In this document: positions 5,889 to 24,491 of the stretch, piece by piece
How the letters are laid out: every line of letters begins with the position of its first letter
Numbering within the stretch: the first letter of the stretch is position 1
From: Streptomyces sp. WMMC500
GTDB lineage: Bacteria > Actinomycetota > Actinomycetes > Streptomycetales > Streptomycetaceae
NCBI RefSeq assembly: GCF_027497195.1
Contig: NZ_CP114905.1
Coordinates: forward strand, 4,413,001 to 4,477,000
Direction of reading: 5' to 3'
DNA length: 64,000 bases
Made by a program: the position numbers and the translations under genes
The notes under the pieces: generated by a model
Told to the model about the DNA's origin: nothing
The model's database searches: none
The model's input: the letters and a program-made list of their open reading frames with translations, nothing else

Positions 5889-5894
5889 GGGGCC

Positions 5895-6380
5895 TCACCT
5901 TTCCGGCAGCGGCGCGTGTGTCCGCGCCGACGCGGGTGGCGGCACCTGCGCGGTGCAGGCGTCGGCGATGGCCCGGGTGTCCCAGTAGAACGGATGGACC
6001 TCGGTGATCTGTCCGTCCCTGACCGTGATGGTTTGCAGGATGGGGAAGGCGAGTTCACGGCCGGTCGCACGCGCGCGGGCACGGATCCGGGTCAGGACGA
6101 CCGCGGTCTCACCGGTGGCGAGGAACTCCTGCTCCACCATGTCGAACCTCTCCCAGACCTGCCCCATCGCGAGAAAGAAGCGCGTCATGCCGTCGTGCCC
6201 GCGCCATGTGCCGCCGTACGGCAGGGCATCCGCCTGATGCAACGCGACGTCCGGCGAGAAGAAGGGGGCGAGCGTGTCGAACGAAGCCTCGCCGGGGCCG
6301 CCGGCGGCGAGGTACTCCGCCTCGGCGGCGTACATGCCGGTGAGGACGGTCAGGGAGTCCGTGGTGGGTGGGGTCGTCAT
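5895..6380 (-). CDS. SnoaL-like / NTF2-fold protein
   Basis: A 161-residue protein with the NTF2-like cone-fold pattern: an N-terminal helix (LTGMYAAEAEYLAAG), FSPDVALHQADALPYGGTWRGHDGM, then strands ending in ILQTITVRDGQITEVHPFYWD. Such proteins include polyketide cyclases, ketosteroid isomerases and many orphan enzymes. The conserved pattern begins shortly after the ATG at 6380; longer frames would run antisense through the neighbouring TrmO gene. No obvious Shine-Dalgarno site precedes it. It ends head to head with the ECF membrane protein, 6 bp apart. The substrate is unknown. Confidence 0.75.
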   Translation of the reverse strand: MTTPPTTDSLTVLTGMYAAEAEYLAAGGPGEASFDTLAPFFSPDVALHQADALPYGGTWRGHDGMTRFFLAMGQVWERFDMVEQEFLATGETAVVLTRIRARARATGRELAFPILQTITVRDGQITEVHPFYWDTRAIADACTAQVPPPASARTHAPLPER

Positions 6381-6474
6381 GACGCCAGCATGCTCGGCGA
6401 GGGCGGTGGCCTGCTGGCGGAATTCGGACGTGACGTTGGGGGGAACTGGTGCGCGGCGGGGATAGCCTCTGGCC

Positions 6475-6951
6475 ATGCCGAGCTTCGAGATCACCCCGAT
6501 CGGTACGGTCAGGAACGACCGGACGGACGTCCAGCACACGGACAACTGGGGTGCCGTCCGCAGCACGATCACCGTCGACGAACGCTTCGGCGACGCGTGC
6601 CTTCAGGGGCTGGAGGGCTTCTCCCACGTGGAGGTCCTCTTCGTCTTCGACCGCTTCCCGGAAGCCGACGACGACAGCGCCTACCGCGAACCCCGCCCGT
6701 ACCGGGGCCGCTCGGACCTCCCGCCCATGGGCATCTTCGCGAGCCGCGGCCCCCGCAGGCCGAACCGGATCGGGGTGACGTCGTGCGCGATCGAGTCGGT
6801 GGAGGGGCGGGAGCTGACGGTGGTGGGTCTCGACGCGGTGTCGGGGACGCCGGTGATCGACCTGAAGCCGGCGATGGCGGAGTTCGGGGTGGTGGATGTC
6901 AGGCAGCCGGAGTGGGTGAGCCGGATGATGTCGGAGTACTTCCGGCCGTAG
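6475..6951 (+). CDS. trmO: TrmO-type tRNA methyltransferase (TsaA/YaeB family)
   Basis: A 158-residue protein with the TsaA-fold signature: ITPIGTVRNDR at the start, HVEVLFVFDRF, then GIFASRGPRRPNRIGVTSC, the S-adenosylmethionine-binding and catalytic loop, and a late VIDLKPAMAEF. In E. coli TrmO N6-methylates t6A37 in threonine tRNA. Length and motifs match single-domain actinobacterial members; the longer C-terminal extension of enteric TrmO is absent. It starts 94 bp from the divergent SnoaL-like gene. The tRNA substrate in this organism is inferred. Confidence 0.85.
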   Translation: MPSFEITPIGTVRNDRTDVQHTDNWGAVRSTITVDERFGDACLQGLEGFSHVEVLFVFDRFPEADDDSAYREPRPYRGRSDLPPMGIFASRGPRRPNRIGVTSCAIESVEGRELTVVGLDAVSGTPVIDLKPAMAEFGVVDVRQPEWVSRMMSEYFRP

Positions 6952-7091
6952 GGGGCGACGCGGCGCGATGGGGGCTCGGGATATCGGCGCCGGGGCGCGC
7001 TGTTCACCGCCCCTGCTGCCCGCTGACGGCTGACCGCGGCTGCCCGCTGTTCACCTGCCCCTGCTGCCCGATGCCCCCGCTTCCCGATTCC
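6952..7091. other. Non-coding spacer 5' of the inverted-repeat island
   Basis: No convincing gene. The stretch holds short repeated words such as CCCCTGCTGCCCG in two copies (7010-7070) and leads into the outer arm of the large inverted repeat. Confidence 0.5.
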
Positions 7092-7520
7092 CACTCCCCC
7101 TCACACCCACCCAAGGGTATGCGCCCGCTCTGACAACACACCGGCGACCGTCGGCCACAAGCCCGCATCGAACGGGTCGGCCTGCACCGTCGCGAGCCCG
7201 AACCGATCTCGGCGAGCCGGACAGCATCTACGGATCGGCCTGCACCGTCGGATGAGCCGGTGGACGGGGGGTCGGCGAAGGGAAAAGGGCCTACGCCAGG
7301 GCACCCCCCGGGCCACCCCGCACTTGAATTGTGCGGGCCTCCGTCCGCCGTCAAGGGCGTCCCCTCCGCTTCGCTCCGGGAACGTCGCTACGCGATGGGC
7401 TGCGCCCACCCTTGACGGCGGACTCCGGCCCGTAAAAGACCGGCAGCTAAGGGTGGCCCGGGGGGAGCGGGCACCCTACTGCCGAAACTACGAAGGGGAA
7501 CCCCGACCACGGGGGCCGGA
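7092..7520 (+). repeat. Left copy of a ~430-bp element present in inverted orientation at 8794-9196
   Basis: Two segments match the right copy. The outer part 7092-7137 pairs with 9151-9196 with one mismatch in 46 bp. The inner part 7255-7520 pairs with 8794-9059 without any gap, and 7342-7520 (179 bp) is identical. The stretch between them (7138-7254) is diverged and contains TCGGCCTGCACCGTCG twice. Inside the inner part, GTCCGCCGTCAAGGG (7343-7357) and its perfect complement (7409-7423) can form a 15-bp stem around a 51-nt loop. No transposase or other credible gene is encoded. It could be a repeated intergenic element or a structured RNA; neither is proven. Confidence 0.9.
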
Positions 7521-7707
7521 ACGCCCGAGCCGGGCCCACCCCCATCGCCGCCCCCCCCGGCGGACGGAGGACGAAACCCGAGACGGCCGCTGCCCGACCG
7601 CGGACGCTGCGGGTAGGGGGTGGGGCCGGGCACTGATGTCGCGGAGGGCTCGTACCGCGGGGTGGCAGGCCGGCATGGGGTGCATCCGGCGGAGAAATCC
7701 GGCCGTT

Positions 7708-8004
7708 ACTCGCGGTAACACCACCCGATCCAGGCCGAATCAGGCCCCGAAGCCCGACTTTTGCCGCCCCAGGCGCCCCACCCCGCCCCGGCCGCCCGGA
7801 ATGCGCGCCACCGGCCCGAACTCGCCGTAACCGGCCCTTCAAACCCGGCCACATCGCCCTCGGGGGCCGAGTTTTGCCCCTCCAGGAGCGCCCGCCCACC
7901 CCCCGGATGAACGTAACCGGTACAAACTCGCGGTAATCCCCTGCACAAACGTAGGCAAAACGCCCACACGAGCAGACTTTTGCCCAACGACACGCACCCG
8001 CCCC
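7708..8004. repeat. Three degenerate ~110-bp direct repeats
   Basis: Each unit contains ACTCGCGGTAA or a one-base variant (7708, 7820, 7926) followed 49-50 bp later by GACTTTTGCC or a close variant (7756, 7869, 7975) and then a C-rich tail. Units repeat every 106-112 bp. On the minus strand each reads GGCAAAAGTC, ~40 bp, then GTTACCGCGAGT; in unit 1 the latter is part of the inverted repeat GTTACCGCGAGTAAC. The array lies between the left element copy and the SnoaL-like gene at 8101. The intervening sequence is unrelated enough that this is not a simple tandem duplication. Confidence 0.75.
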
Positions 8005-8100
8005 GGCCTTACCCCGGAGGTAATCGCCTCGGGCCGGCTACGCGGGCAAGCTGGCTGGCCTCTCCGCGTAGACGACACGCGGACAACGCGAAGGGCAACC

Positions 8101-8535
8101 GTGTCCATGCACACGCGCACCGTGGTCGAGGAACTGCTGCGCAGGATCGGCGAGGGCGATCCCGAGCGCATCGCCGAGATGTACGCCGAGCAGGGCGATT
8201 GGAAGCTGGACTGGCCGGAAGCCGAACACGGTCGCCCGGCCACGCCATGGATCCGTCACCGTTCCACGCGGGCCGACGCGGCGGCGCACTATCGGGAGCT
8301 TGCCGAGCATCACGTACCCGAAGAGGTGGCGACCCATGTCGAGCGCATCCTCGTCGACGGCGACGACGCGGTCGTACTCGGGGAGATCCGCCAGACCGCC
8401 CGGCCGACGGGACGCGCGTATCGCGCCCGGTTCGCGCTGCATCTCACCGTCGAGGGCGGTCTTGTCACGCGGCACCATGTCTACGAGGACAGTCTCGCCG
8501 TCGCCCAGGCATTCGAGGGGGAACGCCAGCGGTGA
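8101..8535 (+). CDS. SnoaL-like / NTF2-fold protein inside the inverted-repeat island
   Basis: A 144-residue protein, GTG start with GAAGGG nine bases upstream; the ATG at 8107 is an alternative. The sequence shows the NTF2-like pattern: VVEELLRRIGEGDPERIAEMYAEQGDWKL, a central HYRELAEHHVPEEVATHVERIL, and strands VLGEIRQTARPTGRAYRARFALHLTVEGGLVTRHHVYEDS. Proteins of this family are small enzymes or ligand-binding domains; no substrate can be named. It is the only credible gene between the two inverted element copies, and has normal Streptomyces codon use. It differs clearly from the NTF2-like protein at 5895. Confidence 0.82.
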   Translation: MSMHTRTVVEELLRRIGEGDPERIAEMYAEQGDWKLDWPEAEHGRPATPWIRHRSTRADAAAHYRELAEHHVPEEVATHVERILVDGDDAVVLGEIRQTARPTGRAYRARFALHLTVEGGLVTRHHVYEDSLAVAQAFEGERQR

Positions 8536-8793
8536 AGGCCGCCCGGCGGTCCCCCGCAGGCGTTGCCTACGCGACCGGGCGGGGGGGACGTACGCGGTCC
8601 GCGTGTGTCCGGCGTCGTCCGGTGTCGGTGGGGCCGGCCTCGACGGGCGGGGCATGCTGCGGTGGCCCCTTGCTCGGCCCGGGGGCCGGCGCTGCTCCGT
8701 TTCCGGGGGGCCAGGTGATCGGGGCGGTCCGGGCTCGGGGCTCCGGTGGCCCGGTTCGGTGTCTGTCGGGGGCGGGGGTCCCGTTTGCGGTGG
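8536..8793. other. Non-coding spacer downstream of the SnoaL-like gene
   Basis: No supported gene. The first 60 bases contain CCGCCCGGCGGTCCCCCGC and a later GACCGGGCGGGGGGGACG that could pair imperfectly as a transcription terminator. The rest is G-rich on the plus strand (GGGGG runs) and joins the right element copy. Confidence 0.4.
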
Positions 8794-9196
8794 TCCGGCC
8801 CCCGTGGTCGGGGTTCCCCTTCGTAGTTTCGGCAGTAGGGTGCCCGCTCCCCCCGGGCCACCCTTAGCTGCCGGTCTTTTACGGGCCGGAGTCCGCCGTC
8901 AAGGGTGGGCGCAGCCCATCGCGTAGCGACGTTCCCGGAGCGAAGCGGAGGGGACGCCCTTGACGGCGGACGCAGGCCCGCACACTTCAAGCGCGGGGTG
9001 GCCCGGGGGGTGCCCTGACGTACACCCTTTTCCCCTCGCCGCCCCCCGTCCACCGGCCCACCCCACACACGACAGTGCGCCCGGCACCGTACCCCCGCAC
9101 CCGGGCCACGCATGCACCGCGCTTACCCACGGTGCCGGTGACCCGGGTGCGTTGTCACAGCGGGCGCATACCCTTGGGTGGGTGTGAGGGGGAGTG
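8794..9196 (-). repeat. Right, inverted copy of the ~430-bp element
   Basis: This is the reverse complement of 7092-7520 in two blocks, 8794-9059 (gap-free over 266 bp) and 9151-9196. The 91 bp between them do not align with the corresponding 117 bp on the left. The outer edge stops 9 bp from the stop codon of the RsbW-like ATPase gene. The conserved internal stem (15 bp) is also present. Identity over 179 bp of non-coding DNA in opposite orientation implies recent duplication, gene conversion or selection on sequence. Confidence 0.9.
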
Positions 9197-9205
9197 CGGG
9201 GCGGG

Positions 9206-9607
9206 TTACGTGGCTGTCGGGGTCGGCGGCTCCGCCTCGGGGACCTTGAACGTTGCCCAGACTGCCTTGCCCGGGCCGTTGCGGGCCGACGTGCCCCAGT
9301 CGTCGGCCAGGGCCGCGACCAGGAGCAACCCCCGGCCGCGGTCGTCCGTGTCCGCGGGTGCGCACACGTGGGGCTCCCCGCCCCCGGCGTCGTGTACCTC
9401 CACCTGAACGAGGTGCGGCTGCACCGCGACCCGCACCAGGAAGCGGCGACCGACCGGCGTGTGCCGCAGCGCGTTGGTCGCCAACTCCGACACGCACACC
9501 CGGATGTCGTCCGCCCGGTCCCCCGCGTCCACCACCGCCGCGACGAAGTCGCGTGCCCTGCCGACCGATCGGGCACTCCGGGCGAACAGACGCGCCTGCG
9601 TGGTCAT
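9206..9607 (-). CDS. RsbW/AbaA-like ATPase, cassette 1
   Basis: A 133-residue HATPase_c_2 protein. The N-box is RVCVSELATNALRHTP, the G1 region is VEVHDAGGGEPHV, and the G2 region is DDRGRGLLLVAALADDWG, so the whole Bergerat ATP site is present. RsbW-like proteins bind and inhibit sigma or anti-anti-sigma factors, often by phosphorylation. The ATG at 9607 follows GAAGGAAG; longer frames are unlike the family. It is divergent from the XRE regulator and its DUF397 partner at 9942-10990, and is about 70% identical by eye to the ATPase at 59943 in the second cassette. The sigma partner is unknown. Confidence 0.87.
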   Translation of the reverse strand: MTTQARLFARSARSVGRARDFVAAVVDAGDRADDIRVCVSELATNALRHTPVGRRFLVRVAVQPHLVQVEVHDAGGGEPHVCAPADTDDRGRGLLLVAALADDWGTSARNGPGKAVWATFKVPEAEPPTPTAT

Positions 9608-9941
9608 CGTGTTGCTTCCTTCGTTCCGGGTTGAGCCGAGCCGTGGTGCGTGTCCGTCACGCCGGAACCACACGGCCCCGCGGACGAAGCGGCCCAGGGC
9701 CGCTCCCCTGACCCGCTGAGGTAAGAGCCCGGCCGGCTCCGCGGAAGGGCAGGGGTGCAGTCCGCCGCTCGGTTCGTTCGCCGCCTGGCTGTCCGCCATC
9801 GCCATGCCTCCCAATTCGTCATTTCGACCGATGCTCCGACCAGGGATCTACTACGTTGCGTAGATGCAGCATTGCTGTCCGTACCCGGCGGCAACAGGTC
9901 TTCATGTTTTCCGCCACCGCTGGAGAGATCGGAGTCGCACC
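9608..9941. promoter_or_regulatory. Divergent control region of WhiJ-like cassette 1
   Basis: A 334-bp spacer between the ATPase and XRE genes. It contains the inverted repeat ATCTAC-N8-GTAGAT at 9846-9865, whose core CTACGTTGCGTAG is 13 bp. A related 13-bp sequence CTACGCGGTGTAC occurs (minus strand, 59867-59879) in the equivalent spacer of the second cassette. This is a candidate operator for the XRE proteins. No clear gene is seen in the spacer. Confidence 0.45.
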
Positions 9942-10772
9942 ATGCCCGCACGTCCCCGCGAACTGACCCCCGAGCGCAGCGCCCGGCACCTCTTCGGCGC
10001 GAAGATGCGCGCGCACCGCATGCGCGCGGGCATGAGCCTTGAAGCACTCAACGACGTGGTGAACATCAGCCGCAGCCACCTGTCCCGCATCGAGACGGCG
10101 GATGCCATGCCGCCCCCGGATCTGCCGCCGCGGCTGGATGCCGCCTTCGGTACGGACGGGATCTTCCGGGAGCTGTACCTGATCGCGGCGCGGGAAATCC
10201 ACCCCGACCAGTTCAAGCGCCTTATGGAACTTGAGGCGCGTGCCCGCGTGATCGCGGAGTACAGCAGTCAGATTGTGCCTGGGCGCCTCCAAACGGAGGG
10301 CTATGCGCGTGCGCAGTTCCGGGCGGCCAATCCGTGGGCGTCGGAAGACAGGATCGAGGAACTCGTCGCCGCTCGGCTGAGTCGGCAATCGGTTCTTGGC
10401 TCCGACACGTTGATGGACTATTCGGCGGTGCTGGACGAGGCCATGCTCCGCCGGGGCTTCGGAGGGCCGGAGGTGATGCGGGCCCAACTCGCGCGCCTCG
10501 CGGAGCTGACGCTCACGCACACGACCATGATCCAGGTTGTCCCCTTCGACGTCGGAGGACATGGGCTGGCCGGAGGCACGCTCGTCCTGATGACCATGGA
10601 GGACGGTGCGCGGTTTGCCTACGAAGAGGGCATCACCACCGGCACGTTGATGGAGGATCTGGAAAGCGTCGTCGAACGCCAGCGGGTATACGATCTGGTA
10701 AGAGTGTCCGCTCTGCCGCCTGATGAATCGGCGGCCTTTATCCGGTCCGTGATGGAGGTACTTCCGACATGA
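9942..10772 (+). CDS. XRE-family regulator with DUF5753, cassette 1
   Basis: A 276-residue WhiJ-type regulator. The N-terminal helix-turn-helix is KMRAHRMRAGMSLEALNDVVNISRSHLSRIE. The C-terminal two thirds is DUF5753, recognisable from YSSQIVPGRLQTEGYARA, the AARLSRQSVL stretch and MIQVVPFDVGGHGLAGGTL. The ATG at 9942 is preceded by GGAG at 9931-9934; the region upstream reads poorly. The stop overlaps the start of the DUF397 gene by four bases (ATGA), so the two are translationally coupled. In S. coelicolor such genes act in developmental control with DUF397 and AbaA-like partners; the role here is by family analogy. Confidence 0.9.
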   Translation: MPARPRELTPERSARHLFGAKMRAHRMRAGMSLEALNDVVNISRSHLSRIETADAMPPPDLPPRLDAAFGTDGIFRELYLIAAREIHPDQFKRLMELEARARVIAEYSSQIVPGRLQTEGYARAQFRAANPWASEDRIEELVAARLSRQSVLGSDTLMDYSAVLDEAMLRRGFGGPEVMRAQLARLAELTLTHTTMIQVVPFDVGGHGLAGGTLVLMTMEDGARFAYEEGITTGTLMEDLESVVERQRVYDLVRVSALPPDESAAFIRSVMEVLPT

Positions 10773-10990
10773 GCACCATGCCTGGCTTCTCGGGTGCGGA
10801 GTGGGTCAAGTCGAGCTACAGCGGAAACGGCGGCGCCAACTGCGTCGAGTGGGCTCCCGCCCACGCCATCTCAGGCATCATCCCCGTCCGCGACAGCAAG
10901 GACCCCCACGGCCCCGCGCTCACCTTCGAGCCCGCCGCCTGGTCGTCCTTCGTCGCCGCCGTCCAGCGCGACGAGTTCGGCACCGTCTGA
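10769..10990 (+). CDS. DUF397 protein, cassette 1
   Basis: A 73-residue protein with the DUF397 hallmarks: EWVKSSYSGNGGANCVE near the N-terminus, VPVRDSKDPHGPALTF-like core (here IPVRDSKDPHGPALTF) and a final W-S-F-V segment. These small acidic proteins nearly always follow an XRE/DUF5753 gene and appear to modulate its DNA binding. The overlap with the upstream gene is four bases. Compared with the cassette 2 protein at 58725, the central RDSKDPHGPALTF is identical, while the ends differ. Confidence 0.92.
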   Translation: MSTMPGFSGAEWVKSSYSGNGGANCVEWAPAHAISGIIPVRDSKDPHGPALTFEPAAWSSFVAAVQRDEFGTV

Positions 10991-11003: not shown

Positions 11004-11999
11004 ATGCGAGCGGACGAGGTCGTGCCCCTGGGGCGTACCGGCGTGTCCGTCACCCGCCTCGGCCTCGGACTCGCCTCCATCGGGGGGCTGTTCGCGCCCG
11101 TCTCCGACGCGGACGCCGCCCGCACCGTCGACGCCGCCTGGGACGCCGGGGTCCGGCTCTTCGACACCGCGCCCGTCTACGGGTACGGGCGCTCCGAACG
11201 CCGCGCCGGTGCCGCGCTCGCGGGGCGGCCGCGGGGGGCGTACGCGCTGTGCACGAAGGTCGGCCGGCTCATCGTGCCGGGCGGCACCGACACGCAGCCG
11301 ATCTGGGCCGACCCGCCGGCCGGGGTCGGGCCGCGGCGGGACTACTCGTACGACGGTGTGATGCGGTCGGTGGCGGACAGCCTGGAGCGGCTGGGGCTGG
11401 ACCGGATCGACGTGCTGCACGTCCACGACCCGGACGAGGACTTCCCCGTCGCCGTCACGGACGCCTACCGGGCGCTGGCCGAACTCCGCGCCCGCGGCAC
11501 CGTCGGCGCGGTGTCGATCGGCGTCAACCACGCGCCGGTGGCCGCCCGTTACCTCCGCGAGGCGGCGGCGCCCGGGCCCGACTGCGTGATGCTCGCGGGC
11601 CGGTACAACCTGCTCGACCACACGGGCCTCGACGAATTGCTGCCGCTGTGCGCGGACCGCGGCGTCGCGGTGCTGGCGGCGGGCGTCTACCAGTCCGGGC
11701 TGCTCACCGACCCCCGTCCCGGTGCCCCGCACGGCTACGCCACGGTCCCCGCCCCGCTCGCCCGCCGCGTCGCCGCCTGGCACGCGCTGTGCCGCCGCTA
11801 CGCCGTACCCCCGGCCGCGGCGGCCGTCCGCTTCCCGTTCGGCCACCCGGCGGTGACCGGCGTGGTGGTCGGCGCCCGCACGGCGGCGGAAGTCGCCGAT
11901 ACGGCACGGGCGTTCGCGCACCCGGTGCCGGCGGAGTTCTGGACCGCGGCCAGGTCCACGGGCCTGCTTCCCCCCGGCGTCCCCACGCCGCAGGGCTGA
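11004..11999 (+). CDS. Aldo/keto reductase (aldose 1-dehydrogenase type)
   Basis: A 331-residue TIM-barrel oxidoreductase. Features: PLGRTGVSVTRLGLG start, LFDTAPVYGYGRSERRAGAAL (Asp and Tyr of the catalytic tetrad), LCTKVGRL with the catalytic Lys, IDVLHVHDPDEDF with His, and a C-terminal VVVGARTAAEV NADP-binding segment. The combination with a long insert after TKVGR resembles bacterial D-threo-aldose 1-dehydrogenases acting on L-fucose or D-arabinose. The ATG at 11004 lies 13 bp after the DUF397 stop, so it may be cotranscribed with the cassette, though that is common background spacing. The substrate is inferred. Confidence 0.85.
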   Translation: MRADEVVPLGRTGVSVTRLGLGLASIGGLFAPVSDADAARTVDAAWDAGVRLFDTAPVYGYGRSERRAGAALAGRPRGAYALCTKVGRLIVPGGTDTQPIWADPPAGVGPRRDYSYDGVMRSVADSLERLGLDRIDVLHVHDPDEDFPVAVTDAYRALAELRARGTVGAVSIGVNHAPVAARYLREAAAPGPDCVMLAGRYNLLDHTGLDELLPLCADRGVAVLAAGVYQSGLLTDPRPGAPHGYATVPAPLARRVAAWHALCRRYAVPPAAAAVRFPFGHPAVTGVVVGARTAAEVADTARAFAHPVPAEFWTAARSTGLLPPGVPTPQG

Positions 12000-12007
12000 A
12001 TCCCCGG

Positions 12008-12409
12008 TCAGGTCTCGTCGTGGAGGTTGATGATGCGGCAGCGCGGGCCGGGTGCGCGGGCGAGTCTGGCGTCGGAGGTCAGCAGCGGGGCGTCGAGGCC
12101 CTCGGCGAGGGCGACGTAGAAGGCGTCGTAGGAGCGCACGCTGCCGAGCTGGCGTACGCGTTCCAGCAGCGGCAGGTGCTCGTGCCGGCGGATGGGCAGG
12201 GTGCGGTAGTCGGTCACGGCCCGCGTGGTCTCCTCCCCGGCGAGCATTCCGGCGCGCTCCAGTCGCAGCAGCACGGAGGCGACCTCGGTGTCGATGAGGT
12301 ACGGGGCCCAGAGCAGGCTCTCGCCGGCCAGGTGGCGAGCCGCGGCCTTGCCCCTGGTGCCGGTGTCCACCAGCAGGTCGACGACGGCGGACGAGTCGAC
12401 GACGATCAA
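12008..12409 (-). CDS. vapC: VapC-type PIN-domain toxin
   Basis: A 133-residue PIN-domain RNase. Acidic catalytic residues are visible in VVDSSAVVDLL, YLIDTEVASVLLRLE, SYDAFYVALAEGL and LLTSDARLARA. VapC toxins cleave tRNA or rRNA when released from VapB. Its start overlaps the end of the antitoxin gene by four bases. The length is standard and no catalytic Asp/Glu appears lost, so it is probably active. The convergent aldo/keto reductase gene ends 8 bp away. Confidence 0.9.
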   Translation of the reverse strand: MIVVDSSAVVDLLVDTGTRGKAAARHLAGESLLWAPYLIDTEVASVLLRLERAGMLAGEETTRAVTDYRTLPIRRHEHLPLLERVRQLGSVRSYDAFYVALAEGLDAPLLTSDARLARAPGPRCRIINLHDET

Positions 12410-12630
12410 CGGTGCTCCTCGTCCGCGAGCGCGGCGGTGTCCACCTCGGTGAGATCGACCGCGGCGTGCCCGCGGATGTGCGCGACGATCTCCTCCATCG
12501 TGGGGATCGTCGCTTCACGTTGTATCAACTCGTGCAGGAAACTCTGCAGGGACTTCCCTTCCTGGGCGGCACGAACCTTGATCGCTCTCAAGGTGTCCTC
12601 GGGGACGTCACGAATCGTCACGGCAGGCAT
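12406..12630 (-). CDS. vapB: VapB-type antitoxin
   Basis: A 74-residue protein. The N-terminus AVTIRDVPEDTLRAIKVRAAQEGKSLQSFL is a ribbon-helix-helix DNA-binding domain; the C-terminus IRGHAAVDLTEVDTAALADEE is the acidic toxin-binding tail. The ATG at 12630 is chosen because the ribbon strand begins right after it. No Shine-Dalgarno site precedes it, and a TATTAT -10-like box about 7 bases upstream suggests a leaderless message. Confidence 0.88.
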   Translation of the reverse strand: MPAVTIRDVPEDTLRAIKVRAAQEGKSLQSFLHELIQREATIPTMEEIVAHIRGHAAVDLTEVDTAALADEEHR

Positions 12631-12667
12631 GCATGCATAATACCTGCATTCACGGCAGAATGCCTGC
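12623..12667 (-). promoter_or_regulatory. Candidate vapBC promoter and operator
   Basis: GCAGGCAT (12623-12630) and its complement ATGCCTGC (12660-12667) form an inverted repeat spanning the vapB start. Between them the minus strand reads TATTATGCATGCATG; TATTAT (12642-12637) fits a -10 element with transcription beginning at or near the start codon. Ribbon-helix-helix antitoxins usually bind such repeats in their own promoter, so autoregulation is likely. The -35 is not clear. Confidence 0.5.
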
Positions 12668-12682
12668 ACCGCACTCCACCCC

Positions 12683-13834
12683 TCAGCCCGCTCCGCCCGC
12701 CGCCGCCTCCTCCGCCCGCCGCCGTTCCGCGGCGCCCCCGCTGCCCGCCCCCGCCACCGCCGAAGGCCGCAGGTGGTGGACCACCGCCACCAGCGCCAGG
12801 GTCAGCGCCAGCAGCCCCGCCCAGATCACCCACTGCTCCGGCCACAGCCCCGGCGACGCACCGTCCGGCGTGCGGCCGCCGTCCACGCCCGTCGCGACGA
12901 CCGCCGCCAGGCCGGCGACCGTCGCCACCACCGCGAGGCGGCCCCCGACGCGGGCGGTGAGCGGCAGGGGGCGGGAGCGGCCGGGGCCGCGGAGGCGGAG
13001 GCGTTCGCTGGGGCGGGCCGGGGCCAGGAGGCGGAGGAGGAGCATGGCGGCGATGGGCATCTGCAGGGCCCAGACCAGGGTGCGGAACGTGCCGTCGTAC
13101 CAGACGTTCGTGCCGTACAGCAGCGTGTGCCAGACGCTGAGGACGTAGACGACGATGATGAAGCGGTGCAGCGCGCGCCACATGCGCGAACCGGTCCGCT
13201 GGCGCAGGTAGTAGGCCAGGCCCAGCGGGATCGCGAGGTAGAACGCCAGCAGGCCGACGAGGATGGCGATGCGGCCGGTGCCGGTGGTGTAGCCGCCGGG
13301 TACGAAGACCTTGAGGAAGGCGTCCCACAGCCGCCCTGGCCAGGTCGCCCCGCCCTCGTTGCCGCGGACCTCCTCCAGGAAGAACATCACCGCGTGCATG
13401 AACATCAGCGCGATCGTCGTCAGGCTCGTCGTGCGGTGCAGCTTCTCCAGCCCGGCGGGCGGCAGCCAGCGCACCCGCGGGCGCGGGCCGGTGCGCAGGA
13501 GGCTGAAGACGATGGTGATCCACGCCCACAGCAGGCCGGACCAGCCGAACGCCTGGCAGAGCCAGTACATCCAGTACTTGTCGGCGTCGGCGAGCATCGG
13601 CATGACCTGGAGGGTCGCCGACGAGCCGTTGTCGATGCGGACGTAGAGCCAGACGAATATCGCGCCGGTGACGACGAGCGCGATGCCCGCGTCCGGCCCG
13701 GCGGCACGGACGTCGGCCCCCAGCCCCGCCCAGTCGAACCGCCCGCCGCCGCGCTTCCCGGCGGACTCCCCGCCGCCCCCTTCCCCGCCCTCGCGGGTCT
13801 TTCCGGGCAGCCCGGATCGACGTGTCACTGCCAT
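12683..13834 (-). CDS. Ferric-reductase-like haem membrane protein
   Basis: A 383-residue membrane protein with about seven hydrophobic segments. After a charged, Gly-rich N-terminal tail (~45 residues) come helices containing LEKLHRTTSLTTIALMFMHAVMFFLEE and MWRALHRFIIVVYVLSVWHTLL; the paired His residues in successive helices fit two b-type haem ligands, as in ferric reductase-like transmembrane domains. No FAD or NAD domain follows, so it resembles a stand-alone haem membrane subunit. The ATG at 13834 has AGGAGG nine bases upstream. Electron donor and acceptor are unknown. Confidence 0.78.
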   Translation of the reverse strand: MAVTRRSGLPGKTREGGEGGGGESAGKRGGGRFDWAGLGADVRAAGPDAGIALVVTGAIFVWLYVRIDNGSSATLQVMPMLADADKYWMYWLCQAFGWSGLLWAWITIVFSLLRTGPRPRVRWLPPAGLEKLHRTTSLTTIALMFMHAVMFFLEEVRGNEGGATWPGRLWDAFLKVFVPGGYTTGTGRIAILVGLLAFYLAIPLGLAYYLRQRTGSRMWRALHRFIIVVYVLSVWHTLLYGTNVWYDGTFRTLVWALQMPIAAMLLLRLLAPARPSERLRLRGPGRSRPLPLTARVGGRLAVVATVAGLAAVVATGVDGGRTPDGASPGLWPEQWVIWAGLLALTLALVAVVHHLRPSAVAGAGSGGAAERRRAEEAAAGGAG

Positions 13835-13892
13835 CTTCAGCCTCCTGAGTCCCGTCGACCCCGTGTGAGGTGTACCCATCACCCCCGGGAGA

Positions 13893-14666
13893 TCAACACG
13901 GATCCACGGGCTCCAGCCGCGTCCACCCGGTCCAACCCCGTTCCCGCAGCAGCTCGATGAGCCGCCGCGCCGGCGGCGCCGCCTCGAACGCCAGCTTGTC
14001 CATCAGCTCCGCGAGCGGCGCCGCGAGGTCGACGTCCGCGACGTAGTCCCGGCCCCGTTCCGCCGTGAGGCGGGCGAGGTACGCGGCCAGGTCGTCGGCC
14101 AGGGCGGTCAGGCGCGGGTCGTCGGGCGGCCAGTCGAGGGCCCGGCCGAGGGTGCGGTAGAAGTCGAGGATCTGGGGGTCGGCGAGTTGGGCGCGCTTAC
14201 GGGCCAGCCACTCCGGTACGCGGTCGGGGGCGTGCGCGGCCAGCGGGATCCAGCCCTCGCGCTCGACCGCGACGATCCGCTCGTCGACGCCGAGTTCCCG
14301 CAGCCGGTCGAGGAACGCCACGACCTCCGCCGGCAGCGCCAGGCTGTCGCCCGCCGTGAGCCGGGCGATGCGGCGGCGGTGCTCCCGGCGTTCGCGGATC
14401 TCGGCCCGCAGCCGCCGGTCGATGTCCGCGACCGCCGCCGCGAACTCCGCCTCGTCGGCTCGCAGCAGCTCCGCGACCCGCGCCAGCGGGACGCCGGCCT
14501 CGGCGAGGGTGCGGATGCGGATCAGCCCGACCACGGCGGCGGCGTCGTAGCGGCGGTAGCCGGAGTGGTCCCGGTCCGGCTCGGGGAGCAGGCCCTTGGC
14601 GTGGTAGTGCCGCACCGCGCGCACCGTCACCCCGGCGTACGCGGCCAGTTCGCCGATGGTCAGCAT
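13893..14666 (-). CDS. MerR-family transcriptional regulator
   Basis: A 257-residue regulator. The N-terminal MerR helix-turn-helix is LTIGELAAYAGVTVRAVRHYHAKGLLPEPDRDHSGYRRYD, followed by a coiled-coil dimerisation helix and a C-terminal domain of ~150 residues that probably senses a ligand. It is the last gene of a three-gene operon after an ABC exporter, starting 9 bp beyond the permease stop. The likely job is control of the exporter through the palindrome at 16480-16500. The ligand is unknown. Confidence 0.88.
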   Translation of the reverse strand: MLTIGELAAYAGVTVRAVRHYHAKGLLPEPDRDHSGYRRYDAAAVVGLIRIRTLAEAGVPLARVAELLRADEAEFAAAVADIDRRLRAEIRERREHRRRIARLTAGDSLALPAEVVAFLDRLRELGVDERIVAVEREGWIPLAAHAPDRVPEWLARKRAQLADPQILDFYRTLGRALDWPPDDPRLTALADDLAAYLARLTAERGRDYVADVDLAAPLAELMDKLAFEAAPPARRLIELLRERGWTGWTRLEPVDPC

Positions 14667-14675
14667 CGGGGCATC

Positions 14676-15464
14676 CTAGGTGGCCCCGCGGGTCCGGTAG
14701 AGGCGGCGCGACCAGAGGAAGCCGGCGGTGCCGATGACCGCGCACCAGCCGACCGCCCAGGCGGCGTCCGCGCCGTCCGGCGCGCCGCCGAGCAGGCCCC
14801 GGATCAGGTCCATGACCGGGGTGAACGGCTGGTGCGCCGCGAACCACCGCAGCCCCGCGGGCATCGACTCGACGGGGACGAACCCGCTGCCCACGAACGG
14901 CAGCAGCACGAAGACCATCGGCAGGTTGCTCGCCGTCTCCGGGTCGGGGCTCGCCAGGCCGAGTGCCACCGTGAACCAGGTCAGCGCGTACGACAGCAGC
15001 ACCAGCAGCCCGGTCAGCGCGGCCCAGTCCGCCGCCGACGCGCCGCCCGGCCGCAGCCCGAGCGCGAACGCCGCCGCGCCCACCGCGAGCAGCGCCAGCG
15101 CGGTCTGGATCATCGCGGCGAGCACGTGGCCGGCGAGGACGGAGGACGGGGCGATGGGCATGGTGCGGAACCGGTCGACGATGCCGTCGGTCATGTCGTT
15201 GGCGACGAGCACGGCGGTGCCGATGGACACGCTCGCGACGGTCATCGTAAGGATCCCGGGGGTGATGTACGTGAGGTAGCCGCCGTGGAGGTCGCCGGGG
15301 AGGTTCGCGCCCATCGTGCCGCCGAAGACGTACGTGAACAGCAGCAGGAACAGCAGCGGCTGGCCGACGAGCATGATCGTCATCGAGGGGTAGCGGGCCA
15401 TGTGCCGCAGGTTGCGGCGCAACATGGTCGCGGAGTCGCGCACGGCGTACGACGCGGCGGTCAT
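14676..15464 (-). CDS. ABC-2 type permease, DrrB-like
   Basis: A 262-residue inner-membrane permease with six predicted helices. MTAASYAVRDSATMLRRNLRHMARYPSM is the cytosolic lead-in, and family motifs such as VFGGTMGANLPG, YITPGILTMTV, DRFRTMPIAPSSVLAGH and FVPVESMPAGLRW are present. Its start overlaps the ATPase stop by four bases. DrrB-like permeases pair with DrrA-like ATPases to export drugs or lipids. The cargo is not predictable. Confidence 0.9.
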   Translation of the reverse strand: MTAASYAVRDSATMLRRNLRHMARYPSMTIMLVGQPLLFLLLFTYVFGGTMGANLPGDLHGGYLTYITPGILTMTVASVSIGTAVLVANDMTDGIVDRFRTMPIAPSSVLAGHVLAAMIQTALALLAVGAAAFALGLRPGGASAADWAALTGLLVLLSYALTWFTVALGLASPDPETASNLPMVFVLLPFVGSGFVPVESMPAGLRWFAAHQPFTPVMDLIRGLLGGAPDGADAAWAVGWCAVIGTAGFLWSRRLYRTRGAT

Positions 15465-19294: not shown

Positions 19295-19544
19295 CGTGAC
19301 GTCACACGTCCGGCTCCTCGCCGGCGGGTGCGGACCCCTCCTCACCCGCCGGCGGGACCCGGGTCCCCTGGGCCGGCCGGCGGGTGGGGGCAGGAGTGGG
19401 TGTGTTGGTCTTCGATCACGTAACGGGCTGCCGATAGCGTCTTGGGGCGGCGTCTCTGCGGGCATCGCGGTGCCGGCGGCCGTGATGCGGCCTGGACACA
19501 CCCGGGTGCGTGGCGAGGCGTGACATGGGGTTGTGGAGGCAGCC
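19295..19544. terminator. metE downstream region with a candidate terminator
   Basis: CACCCGCCGG (19343-19352) and CCGGCGGGTG (19377-19386) can form a 10-bp stem whose loop holds the palindrome GACCCGGGTC, which fits a GC-rich actinomycete terminator without a U-tract. Just after metE is GTGACGTCAC, a 10-bp palindrome. No gene is seen before the small membrane protein. Confidence 0.5.
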
Positions 19545-19751
19545 GTGACGGAGCCACGAGACGACGGGCGGCTGGCCGGGCGCCTGGTGGCCGTGGGGGT
19601 GTTGGGGTTCGTACTGATCGTGCCACCGTTGCTGGCGCAGTTCGACACAATGGAACGCGTCCTCGGTGTCCCGGTTCTCTGGGCGTACCTGCACCTCGTC
19701 TGGGTGATCGTGATCGGCCTGGTCGCCGTCGTCGGCGCCAGATCGAAGTAG
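19545..19751 (+). CDS. Small two-helix membrane protein before the symporter fusion
   Basis: A 68-residue protein with two hydrophobic stretches, LVAVGVLGFVLIVPPLLAQF and VLWAYLHLVWVIVIGLVAVVG. The GTG at 19545 has GGAGG six bases upstream; the GTG at 19533 would add four residues. It ends 4 bp before the symporter fusion, so the two are cotranscribed. Small DUF3311-like proteins of this shape are often encoded just upstream of sodium/solute symporters, where they may be accessory subunits. That role is inferred from position and shape. Confidence 0.75.
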   Translation: MTEPRDDGRLAGRLVAVGVLGFVLIVPPLLAQFDTMERVLGVPVLWAYLHLVWVIVIGLVAVVGARSK

Positions 19752-19755
19752 TGCC

Positions 19756-22700
19756 GTGCTCCGGGCCGAGGTCATCGTCGCCGTTGCGGTGGTGTACCTC
19801 GGTCTGCTCTTCGCCGTGGCCTTCTACGCCGACCGGAGGGCGGACGCCGGCCGGAGCCTGATCAACAACGGCACGGTCTACGCCCTGTCCCTCGCGGTGT
19901 ACGAGACCGCATGGGCGCTCTACGGCAACGTGGGCGGGGCCGCCACGACCGGTGTCGGCTTCCTGGGGCTCTATCTGGGGCCGGTGATCATGCTCGCGCT
20001 CGGCTGGCCCGTACTGCACAGGATCATCCGCATCAGCCGCCGGCACCGGGTCACGTCGCTGGCCGACTTCGTCTCCGCCCGCTACGGCAAGAGCGCGATG
20101 CTGGGCGGTCTGGTCACGATCATCGCCGTGGTCGGGGTTGTTCCCTACATCTCGCTCCAGCTCAAAGCGGTCTCCAACACCTTCGAGATGATCCGCCGGT
20201 ACCCCGAGATCACCGCTCCCTCGGAGCTGGGCCAGGTTCCGCTTCTTCAGGACACCGGGCTGTACGCGGCGCTGCTGCTCGCCGCGTTCACCATCCTCTT
20301 CGGCACCCGCCACCTGGACACCGCGGAACGCCACGAGGGTCTCGTCGCCGCCGTCGCGTTCGAGTCCGTGGTCAAGCTCGCGGCGCTCCTCACGGTCGGG
20401 ATCGTCGTGACCTTCTGGATGTTCGGGGGGTTCGGCGACCTGTTCTCCCAGGCGGAGTATGCGGACTTCACCCAACTGTTCACGCTGCAAGGGCACACCA
20501 GCTACGGCGCGTGGGTCTGGATCACGGTGCTGTCCATGCTGTCGATCGTGCTGCTCCCGCGGCAGTGGCAGGTCACCTTCGTCGAGAACACGGACGAGAA
20601 GCACCTCAAACGCGCGATGTGGCTGTTCCCGCTGTACCTGCTCGCGAACACCTTCTTCGTGCTTCCGCTCGCGGCTGCCGGCCTGCTGCGGTTCGGAGAC
20701 ACCACCGACGCCGACACCTATGTGCTGGCCCTCCCGATGGCCGAAGGCCAGCAGGCACTCGCGCTGTTCGTCTTCATCGGCGGCCTCAGCGCCGGCACCG
20801 CCATGATCGCCGTCGAGACCATCGCACTCAGCACCATGGTGTCCAACTCACTCGTGATGCCGCTGCTGCTGGGCGGCAGGTCCCGGCTGGCCCGTCGAGA
20901 CGACCTCACCCGCCTGGTACTGAGCATCCGCCGAACGGCCATCGTGCTGATTCTGCTGCTCGGCTACGCGTACTTCCGGCTCGCGGGCGAGGGTCGGGCG
21001 TTGACGTCGTTCGGACTGGTGTCGTTCGCGGCCGTGGCACAGCTCGCACCCGCGATCCTCGGCGGCCTGTTCTGGAGGGACGGCACCCGCTGGGGTGTGC
21101 TGGTGGGTCTCGTCGCGGGGTTCGTCATGTGGGCGTACACCCTGCTGCTGCCGAGCTTCGCCGAGGCCGGGCTGCTGCCCGAATCGTTCCTGCGTGAGGG
21201 CCCGCTCGGCATCGAGCTGCTCCGGCCGCAGCAGTTGTTCGGCCTGACGGGCATGGACCCGATCAGCCATGCGATGTTCTGGACCGCGCTGGTGAACGTC
21301 GGCGGGTACGTCGCCGTCTCCCTCGCCGGCCGGCCGAATGTCACCGAGCGGGCGCAGGCGGTCCAGTTCGTCGACATCCTCGCGGAGCCCGCCAGAGAAC
21401 GGCGCTGGCTGGCCCGTGCCACGGTCGGCGCCCTGCAGACGATGCTGGAGCGCTTCCTCGGGCGGGAGGGCGCCGAGCGGGCGGTGCGCGCCTACCCGGG
21501 GACAAGACCCGGCTCACCGGAGGCCGAAGCGCCCCCGGAGCTGATCCATCACGCGGAAGCCCAGCTCTCCGGCTCTGTCGGCGCGGCGTCCGCGCGGCTC
21601 GCGGTCGACGCGGTGGTCGGACAGGAACCGGTCCGCACCGACGAGGTGATGGAGATGATCGGCGAGGCGTCGCAGAGGGTCGAGCTGGTCCGGCGACGGC
21701 TGGAGTTCCTCTACGACGCGACCAACAGGATCGGCACCACCCTCGATGTGACCCATACGGCCGAGGAGCTGGCCCAGGCCGCGATTCCGGGCTTCGCCGA
21801 CTACGCCACCGTCGACCTCCCCGAGGCCGTGGTGCGCGGTGACGAACCGGGGATGAACGGCGGTGGCGGCGCCGGCGACAGCGGCCGGCGGATACACCGC
21901 ACGGCGGTCAGCGGCATCCGTGACGACGCCCCCTTCTTCCCCATCGGCACCCTGATCACCTACGCGCCGTCCTCGACCGCCGCCCGCAGCATCGAGACGG
22001 GGCAGGCGATCCTGGTGCCCCGGCTGCGTGACTCCCTGGGGTGGCGGGAGGTGGATCACGCACGGGCCGCACGCATCCTGGACTACGGGGTCCACTCGCT
22101 CGTCACGGCGCCGCTGCGCGCCCGCGGTGTGCTGCTGGGCGTCGTCAACTTCTGGCGCTCGGAGAAACCCGAGCCCTTCGAGCAGGACGATCTCTTCCTC
22201 GCGGCCGAACTGGCCGCCCACGCCGCCGTGTCGCTCGACAACGCACGCCGCTACACCCGCGAGCACGGCATGGCCGTGGCCCTTCAGCGCAGCCTGCTGC
22301 CCCGCACCCTGCCGGAACAGAACGCCGTCGACGTCGCCTACCGCTACCTCCCCGCGCAGGAAGGCGTCGGCGGCGACTGGTTCGACGTGATCCCCCTGTC
22401 CGGCGCCCGCGTCGCCCTGGTGATCGGCGACGTCGTCGGACACGGACTGCACGCCGCCGCCACCATGGGACGGCTGCGCACCGCCGTCACCAGCTTCTCC
22501 TCCCTCGATCCACCACCCCACGAACTCCTCGGCCACCTCGACGAACTGGCCACCCTCACCGACCGGGAAGCCGTCGCCGCCGGCGACGCGACCACCATCA
22601 CCGGCGCCACCTGCCTGTACGCCGTCTACGACTCCGTGACCCGCCGCTGCGCCATCGCCAGAGCCGGCCACCCGGCACCCGCCCTCGCGCACCCCGACGG

Positions 22701-23379
22701 CACCGTCGAGTTCCTGGACGTACCCACGGGCCTCCCCCTCGGCATCGGCGGACTGCCCTTCGAATCCGTCGAACTGCTCCTGCCCGAGGACAGCAGACTC
22801 GTCCTGTTCACCGACGGCCTCATCGAACGCCGCGACCAGGACATCGACACCGGACTCGAACTGCTCCGTCAGACCCTCGCAGGCTCCGGCCAGACCCCCG
22901 AGGAGACCTGCGACGCCGTGGTCGACGCCCTCCTCCCGCCCGTCCAGAGAGACGACATCGCCCTGCTCGTCGCCCGGACACGCCCGCTGGGGAGCAGACA
23001 TGTCGCCCAGTGGGACATCGAGTCCCACCCCGCGGCCGTCCACCGCGTACGCGCCGCCGTCTCCGCACTCCTCGCGGAATGGGAACTGGAGAACCTCCAG
23101 GAGACCACCGAGCTGATCCTCAGCGAACTGATCACCAACGCCATGCGTCACGGCGTCGGACCCATCAGAGTAAGGCTGCTGCGCGACCGCACGCTCACCT
23201 GCGAGGTCTACGACCACAGCCTCACCTCACCGCATCTGCGCTACGCCTCCACCACGGACGAGGGCGGACGGGGACTCTTCCTGGTCGCCCAGCTCACCGC
23301 ACGCTGGGGAACCCGCTACACACAGGACGGCAAGGTCATCTGGGCCGAACAGACCACCCCGGAGACACCCGGCGACTGA
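19756..23379 (+). CDS. Sodium/solute symporter fused to STAC, GAF, SpoIIE phosphatase and RsbW-like ATPase
   Basis: A continuous 1207-residue protein. Residues 1-~525 are a sodium:solute symporter of about 13 helices (for example YETAWALYGNVGGAATTG, TSLADFVSARYGKSA, TAMIAVETIALSTMVSNSLV). Residues ~545-640 match the STAC linker that joins transporters to signalling domains (ALQTMLERFLGREGAE, SGSVGAASARLAV). A GAF-like domain covers ~650-830. Residues ~838-1078 are a PP2C/SpoIIE phosphatase with metal ligands in GDWFDVI, VIGDVVGHG, FTDGLIE and DDIALLV. Residues ~1082-1205 are an HATPase with TELILSELITNAMRHG and DEGGRGLFLVAQL. All catalytic residues look intact. The simplest reading is a membrane sensor that both dephosphorylates an anti-anti-sigma factor and binds a sigma factor; the ligand and partners are unknown. 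Confidence 0.92.
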   Translation: MLRAEVIVAVAVVYLGLLFAVAFYADRRADAGRSLINNGTVYALSLAVYETAWALYGNVGGAATTGVGFLGLYLGPVIMLALGWPVLHRIIRISRRHRVTSLADFVSARYGKSAMLGGLVTIIAVVGVVPYISLQLKAVSNTFEMIRRYPEITAPSELGQVPLLQDTGLYAALLLAAFTILFGTRHLDTAERHEGLVAAVAFESVVKLAALLTVGIVVTFWMFGGFGDLFSQAEYADFTQLFTLQGHTSYGAWVWITVLSMLSIVLLPRQWQVTFVENTDEKHLKRAMWLFPLYLLANTFFVLPLAAAGLLRFGDTTDADTYVLALPMAEGQQALALFVFIGGLSAGTAMIAVETIALSTMVSNSLVMPLLLGGRSRLARRDDLTRLVLSIRRTAIVLILLLGYAYFRLAGEGRALTSFGLVSFAAVAQLAPAILGGLFWRDGTRWGVLVGLVAGFVMWAYTLLLPSFAEAGLLPESFLREGPLGIELLRPQQLFGLTGMDPISHAMFWTALVNVGGYVAVSLAGRPNVTERAQAVQFVDILAEPARERRWLARATVGALQTMLERFLGREGAERAVRAYPGTRPGSPEAEAPPELIHHAEAQLSGSVGAASARLAVDAVVGQEPVRTDEVMEMIGEASQRVELVRRRLEFLYDATNRIGTTLDVTHTAEELAQAAIPGFADYATVDLPEAVVRGDEPGMNGGGGAGDSGRRIHRTAVSGIRDDAPFFPIGTLITYAPSSTAARSIETGQAILVPRLRDSLGWREVDHARAARILDYGVHSLVTAPLRARGVLLGVVNFWRSEKPEPFEQDDLFLAAELAAHAAVSLDNARRYTREHGMAVALQRSLLPRTLPEQNAVDVAYRYLPAQEGVGGDWFDVIPLSGARVALVIGDVVGHGLHAAATMGRLRTAVTSFSSLDPPPHELLGHLDELATLTDREAVAAGDATTITGATCLYAVYDSVTRRCAIARAGHPAPALAHPDGTVEFLDVPTGLPLGIGGLPFESVELLLPEDSRLVLFTDGLIERRDQDIDTGLELLRQTLAGSGQTPEETCDAVVDALLPPVQRDDIALLVARTRPLGSRHVAQWDIESHPAAVHRVRAAVSALLAEWELENLQETTELILSELITNAMRHGVGPIRVRLLRDRTLTCEVYDHSLTSPHLRYASTTDEGGRGLFLVAQLTARWGTRYTQDGKVIWAEQTTPETPGD

Positions 23380-23554: not shown

Positions 23555-24439
23555 TCAGGGGTGAGCGGGGCCGGCGAAGGGGGCGAGCTTGTCGGGGTTG
23601 GCGAGCCGCCGGATTTCGAGGAGGCGGCCGTCGTCGGCGACCTCCACCGTGTCCAGCCAGAGCAGCACCCCGTCGCGGTACGTCGCGAGCGCGGGCCGGC
23701 CGTTGGCCTCGACGAGCTCCGCGGGGCCGGGGCGCTTCTTCAGAATCGACCGGACGGTGAGCAGCGCGATCGTCTCCGCGCCCCGCACCTCCCGGCGGGC
23801 GGCGAGCGCCTTGCCGCCGCCGTCGCTGACGTACACGGCGTCCGGGTGCAGCAACTCGATCAGCGCGGCCATGTCACCGGCCTCGGCCGCGGCCTTGAAC
23901 GCCTTGAGCACACGCTCGGTCTCCGCCCGCGAGGCCGTCGGCTCCCGCCCCTCCGCCCGTACCCGGGCGCGGGCCCGGGAGGCGTGCTTGCGGGCGGCGG
24001 CCGGGGTGCTGCCGAGCACGCCGGCGATGTCGGCGAAGGGGAACTCGAAGACGTCGTGCAGCACGAACGCGACCCGCTCGGCGGGCGTCAGCCGCTCCAT
24101 CAGCAGCAGCATCGCGGTGCCGACCGACTCGTCCACGAGCACCGGCGCCTCGGCGTCGGGCCCGGTCGGCAGCGGCTCGGGCAGCCAGGGACCCACGTAC
24201 GTCTCACGCCGCACGCGGGCGGACTTCAGCACGTTGTACGCGGTCCTGGCGGCCACCGTCAGCAGCCAGGCGCGCAGGTCCCGTACGTCGGACAGGTCGG
24301 CGCCCGCGGCCCGCAGCCACACGTCCTGCACGACGTCCTCGGCCTCGGTGACGCTGCCGAGGATGCGGTACGCGGCACCGAAGACGGCGGGCCGGTGCGC
24401 GGCCCAGTCCGCCTCGGTGAGCGTACGGGTGGGCTCCAC
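23555..24439 (-). CDS. ECF41-type sigma factor with C-terminal SnoaL-like domain
   Basis: A 294-residue sigma factor. Region 2 is RPAVFGAAYRILGSVTEAEDVVQDVWLRA, and region 4 is ERLTPAERVAFVLHDVFEFPFADIAGVLGSTPAAARKHASRARARVR. The C-terminal ~110 residues form an NTF2-like domain with the group-specific DGGGK (in SDGGGKALAA) and NPDKL (LANPDKLAPF) motifs; in ECF41 factors this tail controls activity instead of a separate anti-sigma factor. The GTG at 24439 has AGGAGG nine bases upstream, making the GTG at 24457 unlikely. The usual carboxymuconolactone-decarboxylase or epimerase partner gene is not adjacent. Confidence 0.92.
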   Translation of the reverse strand: MEPTRTLTEADWAAHRPAVFGAAYRILGSVTEAEDVVQDVWLRAAGADLSDVRDLRAWLLTVAARTAYNVLKSARVRRETYVGPWLPEPLPTGPDAEAPVLVDESVGTAMLLLMERLTPAERVAFVLHDVFEFPFADIAGVLGSTPAAARKHASRARARVRAEGREPTASRAETERVLKAFKAAAEAGDMAALIELLHPDAVYVSDGGGKALAARREVRGAETIALLTVRSILKKRPGPAELVEANGRPALATYRDGVLLWLDTVEVADDGRLLEIRRLANPDKLAPFAGPAHP

Positions 24440-24491
24440 GGGGCACTGCCTCCTCACACCGGTGACGGTGTGCAGTGTAGGCAGACGGCGG

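Follow-up and report, generated by a model that had tools for sequence, protein, structure and literature searches.

A CbrA-like SLC5–STAC sensor joined to a GAF–SpoIIE–RsbW-like module in Streptomyces, preceded by a conserved small membrane protein gene

The 64,000-nucleotide stretch of Streptomyces sp. WMMC500 analyzed here (the window; contig NZ_CP114905.1, positions 4,413,001 to 4,477,000) contains a gene (19756–23379, transcribed rightwards) of 1207 codons, coding for a 1207-residue protein in which a CbrA-type sensor, an SLC5 transporter domain followed by a STAC domain, is joined to a GAF domain, a SpoIIE-type PPM phosphatase and an RsbW-like HATPase. It is preceded by a small gene coding for a two-helix membrane protein. 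The five domains, the two ancestries of the chain and the conservation of the small upstream open reading frame (ORF) are evident from sequence comparison. The reading that we consider reasonably probable is that an SLC5–STAC 'transceptor' has had its kinase output replaced by a GAF–SpoIIE–RsbW module, which would give nutrient-dependent release of a sigma factor.

The reading frame is genuine and is one gene. As originally predicted it is uninterrupted, from a GTG start at 19756, and in alignments with four orthologues codon change is concentrated at the third position in both halves. Among the 120 matches listed of 7995 scored there are at least 27 full-length protein clusters with 99–100% query coverage and 73–91% identity; all 19 of the organism-named clusters are from Streptomyces, and the mean column identity across 28 fusion proteins is 85%. 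With the SLC5–STAC half as the query against whole-genome samples (which overlap, each containing the window's own genome), matches are found in 5/295 genomes of the genus sample (E <= 1e-30) and, at E <= 1e-60, in 12/391 of the order sample, all in the window's genus, in 3/394 of the class sample and in 2/396 of the phylum sample. The long frame is unbroken in 12 genomes with such matches and broken in a thirteenth; the same-genus matches with an unbroken frame are all at least 1203 residues long, with room for the whole fusion, and the second phylum-sample match (G335) is a kinase of 922 residues. The fusion is a gene family, rare and scattered in its distribution.

Some members vary in arrangement or annotation. 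In one genome (G1073, locus L140) two fusion genes stand in tandem (7251–10895 and 11203–15408), the second open frame being about 190 residues longer, and in another (G947, locus L147) the fusion is split near SLC5 residue 413 into overlapping pieces, whether because the gene has decayed, is truly split or was misread in sequencing. Four protein records (P0032, P0036, P0037 and P0038) are 855–879 residues long against open frames of 1203–1252 residues (G1009, G1117, G1272 and G232), and their annotation seems to start about 330–350 residues late, losing much of the transporter.

The domain assignments come from Pfam and from 10ed_A, a solved chain that we take to be the CbrA SLC5–STAC structure, and these bear out the predicted domain order, the CbrA-type STAC link and the placement of a partner-switching-type output on a transporter domain. 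In the 1207-residue chain Pfam recovers SpoIIE (E 9.7e-53), HATPase_c_2 (E 6.8e-12) and GAF (E 2e-8), as the original prediction expected of a domain search, but the SSF model that it also named (PF00474) has no match at E <= 1, and STAC is recovered through the 10ed_A profile alignment. HisKA is not found by Pfam, and SpoIIE and HATPase_c_2 stand in place of the DHp/CA domains of a histidine kinase. The SLC5 (LeuT-fold) domain (19756–21330; residues ~1–525, boundary approximate) is identified by a single-sequence phmmer match to 10ed_A (E 4e-71, residues 8–469), and the profile of alignment A1 extends this match through the STAC region (E 7e-95, chain residues 10–589); the transmembrane part, where 13 helices would be expected of an SLC5–STAC transceptor, aligns along the CbrA SLC5 domain. 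The STAC domain (21412–21675; residues ~553–640), in which the profile alignment reaches CbrA residue 589, has four predicted helices (557–578, 594–608, 610–621 and 628–656 in the structure model), the fourth continuing into a linker helix (21676–21735; residues 641–660). Beyond this are the GAF domain (21748–22263; residues ~665–836, with a Pfam GAF/GAF_2 core at about 730–828), a predicted continuous GAF-to-phosphatase helix (22186–22293; residues 811–846, from model secondary structure with confidence below 50 at its end), the SpoIIE/PPM phosphatase domain (22402–22980; residues 883–1075) and the RsbW-like HATPase_c_2 domain (23020–23343; residues 1089–1196), all on the forward strand. A fold search with the STAC–output model returns GAF folds, the Rv1364c and SpoIIE folds for the PPM domain and the RsbW/SpoIIAB GHKL fold for the HATPase, with residues 1–103 of the model (the STAC side) barely covered.

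The two halves of the chain have different relatives. The SLC5–STAC half is 61–79% identical to 15 aligned SLC5–STAC histidine kinases, of which the six organism-named ones are Actinobacteria, and in the sensor tree (every second listed kinase match, 36 rows with 6 organism-named, and 10 of 80 SLC5–STAC loci) the 28 fusions fall inside the histidine kinases, separate from the ten loci of other phyla. In the output tree the GAF–SpoIIE–HATPase half of the fusions forms a single clade (SH-aLRT 99), which nests next to 11 listed sCache_3–GAF–SpoIIE–HATPase proteins; ten of these are organism-named, all Streptomyces, and PAS is listed in four of the 11. Output-module identity to these proteins is 69–73%, and 58% to a twelfth, P0123, whose gene in one locus (L018; 13156–15984, leftwards) lies near the fusion, from which the small ORF and a gene for a solute-binding protein separate it. 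The two trees come from quick searches, and a length filter removed the own-genome paralogues L003–L008 from the output tree, keeping only L002.

The boundary between the two ancestries falls at residues 640/641 (...EASQ/RVELVRRRLEFL...), where ...VMEMIGEASQ is common to the kinases and RVELVRRRLEFLYDAT... is common to the sCache proteins. The left side aligns with the histidine-kinase relatives, and the alignment with sCache–SpoIIE proteins starts at residue 641. These relationships indicate that a histidine-kinase output has been exchanged at the end of STAC for an sCache-type GAF–SpoIIE–HATPase module, a replacement that probably happened once within Streptomyces.

The small gene upstream (19545–19751, rightwards) codes for a 68-residue two-helix membrane protein, a candidate CbrX-like subunit of the SLC5 domain. 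It starts with GTG, preceded by GGAGG at 19535–19539, and its stop codon (19749–19751) lies 4 nt before the fusion start, as predicted; there is an alternative longer GTG start at 19533, and the ribosome site belongs to 19545. A profile built from 11 members, themselves included in the count, matches directly upstream of 84 of 86 SLC5–STAC genes whatever their output domain, the two exceptions being L052, which is cut by a contig end, and L050, where the match lies farther upstream; among 22,178 fragments searched, no other match at E < 1e-3 lies away from the directly upstream position. The 84 loci, many in metagenome-assembled genomes (MAGs), span Actinobacteria, several proteobacterial classes, Myxococcota, Chloroflexota, Bacteroidota and a MAG labelled as a cyanobacterium. 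The small ORF is present at all 14 distinct fusion loci (13 genomes), where among 15 fusion copies the first of the L140 tandem pair has no small-protein match upstream. Because it has been retained through the output swap, we argue that it serves the sensor half.

The small protein has no Pfam or NCBIfam family above cut-off; DUF3311 and DUF4212 were considered and rejected, there being no such match, and the profile finds a chance match only in the PDB (E 0.62). A single-pair hhalign comparison with CbrX (probability 65%, E 6e-5) is suggestive of homology. CbrX is encoded before CbrA in Pseudomonas and is described as a two-helix hairpin that binds the SLC5 domain at its transmembrane helices TM3 and TM8 (PMC13022988), and the two genes are reported to be translationally coupled (PMC6591292). 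By analogy, the 68-residue protein would bind SLC5 here in the way that CbrX binds it in CbrA.

The prediction of a complete sodium symporter holds in its homology to CbrA, but sodium coupling is unsupported, because K207 (codon 20374–20376, rightwards) aligns with the CbrA lysine K196, which is reported to fill the Na2 site of a proton-gradient-driven transporter (PMC13022988, PMC7096432). K207 is lysine in 28/28 fusions and in 15/15 histidine kinases of alignment A1. The aligned position in other SSF proteins is alanine in the L020 SSF and lysine in the DUF485-linked SSF of L019, and the lysine alone is therefore no proof of proton coupling. In the pocket, Y49, W53, F69, Y73 and F424 of the fusion correspond to CbrA Y51, W55, F71, Y75 and F406, while CbrA S53 and F248 are replaced by T51 and S260. 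A set of residues on a pocket helix, E50/A52/N58, was considered as a fusion-specific signature and rejected, since the three occur together in only 14/28 fusions, the window protein included, and are A or V, S and S in the other 14; at the same positions the aligned kinases carry A or C, then S, then S or G. We therefore claim no substrate, and the 14:14 split may reflect two substrates. The fusion SLC5 domain is 57% identical to a ~938-residue Pseudomonas class, 40% to a class of CrbS-like size and 36% to CbrA. Among 45 ORFs picked downstream of the kinase genes in 28 of the 80 loci, a receiver domain is present in 15, DUF294 in 11, an exonuclease domain in 11 and acetyl-CoA synthetase in two, and the L019 locus, in the window's phylum, has in this order DUF294-CBS, the small ORF, an SLC5–STAC kinase, exonuclease, DUF485 and SSF genes. 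Argued from these kinase loci and not from the fusion, this suggests an acetate-like ancestral substrate.

In the output half, the PPM aspartates D877, D892, D1020 and D1067, which we take to be metal ligands, are present in 28/28 fusions. The HATPase likewise has E1124 and N1128, read here as the N-box of RsbW/SpoIIAB, together with D1153 and GGRGL in all 28, but it lacks DxGxG, the G1-box motif of RsbW proteins. The segment reads D-x-S/G-x-T, with both glycines in 0/28 and the first in 1/28, such that the expectation of two catalytically intact activities is borne out at the PPM aspartates and not in the HATPase. In the window's own genome DxGxG is also absent from the segments read for all nine other SpoIIE-fused HATPases, and among stand-alone RsbW-like HATPases (20 of 22 examined, with the G1 segment read in each of these but L119) it is present in 4/19 readable and absent in 15/19. 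Two stand-alone RsbW-like HATPases with intact DxGxG are encoded in the window, at 9209–9814 (leftwards) and about 59982–60326 (rightwards). The original prediction regarded the two activities as normally opposing and separate, and their union as odd, but the nine other own-genome matches span both phosphatase and kinase-like domains, and Rv1364c and SypE also combine them.

In the mechanism that we favor, the 68-residue protein would bind the SLC5 domain in the manner of CbrX, and SLC5 occupancy or conformation would be read through STAC and the helical linker, jointly with GAF. The resulting change in packing of dimeric PPM domains would switch dephosphorylation of an unlinked STAS anti-anti-sigma protein, presumably of the BldG/RsbV type. 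The C-terminal RsbW-like domain would dock, and perhaps weakly phosphorylate, the same STAS protein, or hold a sigma factor, and the outcome would be release of the sigma factor in a nutrient-dependent way. Control of PPM dimer packing by SLC5/STAC and GAF, and hence of STAS dephosphorylation, is the most likely course by analogy with RsbU, work on which supports it by proposing that related coiled-coil linkers allow sensor exchange among phosphatases, kinases and cyclases (PMC12143880).

Several observations weigh against this reading. A CbrA/CrbS chimera is reported to signal without need for transport (PMC5715377), which speaks against tuning by substrate flux, one of the options in the original prediction; the CbrA signal may be intracellular (PMC6591292, PMC7096432), and CbrX is described as dispensable for P. 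putida growth on histidine (PMC13022988). The absence of DxGxG makes kinase activity doubtful, and the structure models are poor for SLC5–STAC (pLDDT 48.8, too poor for a fold search) and moderate for STAC–output (65.6). In the sensor tree a Streptomyces sp. 7N604 histidine kinase (P0041) groups within the fusions (support 84), so that the gain may not have been single, with a reversal or a second swap as alternatives. There is no acetate-type gene among ten window neighbours scanned, no STAS gene in 25 neighbour proteins from the six fusion loci scanned, and no STAS partner or sigma gene that recurs among 16 fusion loci.

The homologue survey for gene pairs that the original prediction proposed thus yields the small ORF and no recurrent STAS or sigma-type gene: the only gene families in more than three of the 16 loci are the fusion and the small ORF, the latter in 14/16 by gene model. 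These loci include two second copies of one record, L143 being the same record as L021. The neighbour clustering used a simple gene caller with thresholds of 35% identity and E 1e-20, at which divergent or short recurrent neighbours could escape, and it missed the L021 small ORF that the profile search recovered. With no STAS gene found in the neighbours scanned, the partner is probably encoded elsewhere in the genome, which has 10 STAS matches in other places. Upstream of the fusion is metE, and a gene of the sigma-70 family that has just regions 2 and 4 (23558–24457, leftwards) converges on it from downstream. This gene was rejected as the partner, being convergent and, in the two closest relatives (L015 and L016), at distances of 3.1 and 5.6 kb, and it has no match in the 18–20 kb loci of four other relatives. 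In L016 a GAF–SpoIIE gene (5671–7143, rightwards) is convergent with the fusion.

Of the alternatives, the one that survives best, although we hold it only tentatively, is that the chain works purely as a phosphatase, its HATPase being a pseudo-kinase with no role beyond docking the STAS substrate or a sigma factor. The missing DxGxG and the STAS-acting type of the fused PPM domain favor it, but 15/19 readable stand-alone frames also lack the motif, and its loss is therefore not special and may be tolerated. Somewhat more doubtful is the proposal that the SLC5–STAC half is an anchor and dimerizer, or an independent transporter, with GAF as the real sensor and the fusion giving location only. 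It draws on reports that CbrA without its transmembrane part still signals when overexpressed (PMC6591292) and that transport is dispensable for signalling in the CbrA/CrbS chimera (PMC5715377), and on relatives in which a similar output follows an unrelated sensor, sCache; set against it are the conservation of the chain after the swap (85% mean column identity in 28 proteins), the invariance of K207 and the small ORF in 14/14 loci.

It is unlikely that the HATPase is an active kinase and that the chain alternates between phosphorylating and dephosphorylating one STAS protein, in the way described for SypE. The N-box residues, D1153 and GGRGL in 28/28, the RsbW/SpoIIAB fold and the SypE precedent (PMC10120452) are consistent with it, but DxGxG is absent in 28/28 fusions, as it is from the other nine HATPases fused to SpoIIE in this genome. 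We give equally little weight to a version in which the transporter and its near-universal two-helix subunit moved intact from kinases as one sensor cassette, with occupancy flipping the chain between STAS-kinase and STAS-phosphatase and so setting the sigma factor directly, without a response regulator. An assembly join of two genes, named in the original prediction as a possible refutation, or a decaying pseudogene is scarcely credible: one relative (G947, L147) has a frame broken in the SLC5 part, but the at least 27 full-length relatives at 73–91% identity in independent genomes, the unbroken frames in 12 genomes and the third-position-biased change in both halves exclude an artefact.

Returning to replacement of the kinase output of a transceptor, the parts of the fusion are reminiscent of several known systems. 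CbrA/CbrX of Pseudomonas shares the SLC5 domain with its Na2-site lysine, STAC and a small two-helix protein encoded directly upstream, but has a histidine kinase output and PAS. CrbS/MxtR and RpuS, reported as SLC5–STAC sensors for acetate or pyruvate use (PMC5715377, PMC9100948), differ in being hybrid kinases with REC. One Pseudomonas protein that is CrbS-like by size (L107) is 40% identical, and an upstream small ORF of this family is not seen there by eye. Rv1364c of Mycobacterium tuberculosis has a PPM phosphatase and then an RsbW domain in one chain, but, as described in PMC12143880, has a PAS sensor, a C-terminal anti-anti-sigma domain and no transporter. SypE is described as a single chain that carries both a phosphatase and a kinase domain (PMC10120452). 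The Streptomyces sCache_3–(PAS)–GAF–SpoIIE–HATPase proteins have a similar output with sCache_3 (11/11 listed) instead of SLC5–STAC as the sensor.

The domain combination itself is already in print, because section 5.1.1 of a 2021 review (PMC7918813) names actinobacterial proteins that combine SSS, HATPase_c, GAF and PP2C_SIG, without function; with the same domain set and phylum, they are very probably the same family. This is the only report found in a literature search for a transporter–SpoIIE fusion. That section reports the combination only, with no STAC, small subunit, ancestry or mechanism, and the ancestry, junction and small-subunit family described here are new, not having been met in the literature passages on such proteins. 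For Gram-positive bacteria the review section records no protein with SSS+HisKA; the SLC5–STAC protein of L019 has HisKA (E 8.7e-21) with no Pfam SSF match at E <= 1e-5, and the listing for P0108, from a Gaiellaceae MAG, gives SSF as well as HisKA. The lack of a Pfam SSF match, together with the four seemingly late-started records (by ~330–350 residues), helps the transporter half to be missed by automatic annotation.

It has been proposed that helical linkers allow bacterial sensors to be exchanged between histidine kinases and PPM phosphatases (PMC12143880). The fusion offers a natural test of this idea, and the coupling step is open to test by comparison because relatives exist with the same sensor and a kinase, and with the same output and a Cache sensor. 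An unannotated family of small membrane proteins precedes nearly all examined genes of the SLC5–STAC clade, in several phyla, and if the small protein is homologous to CbrX, then CbrX would be an instance of a general subunit.

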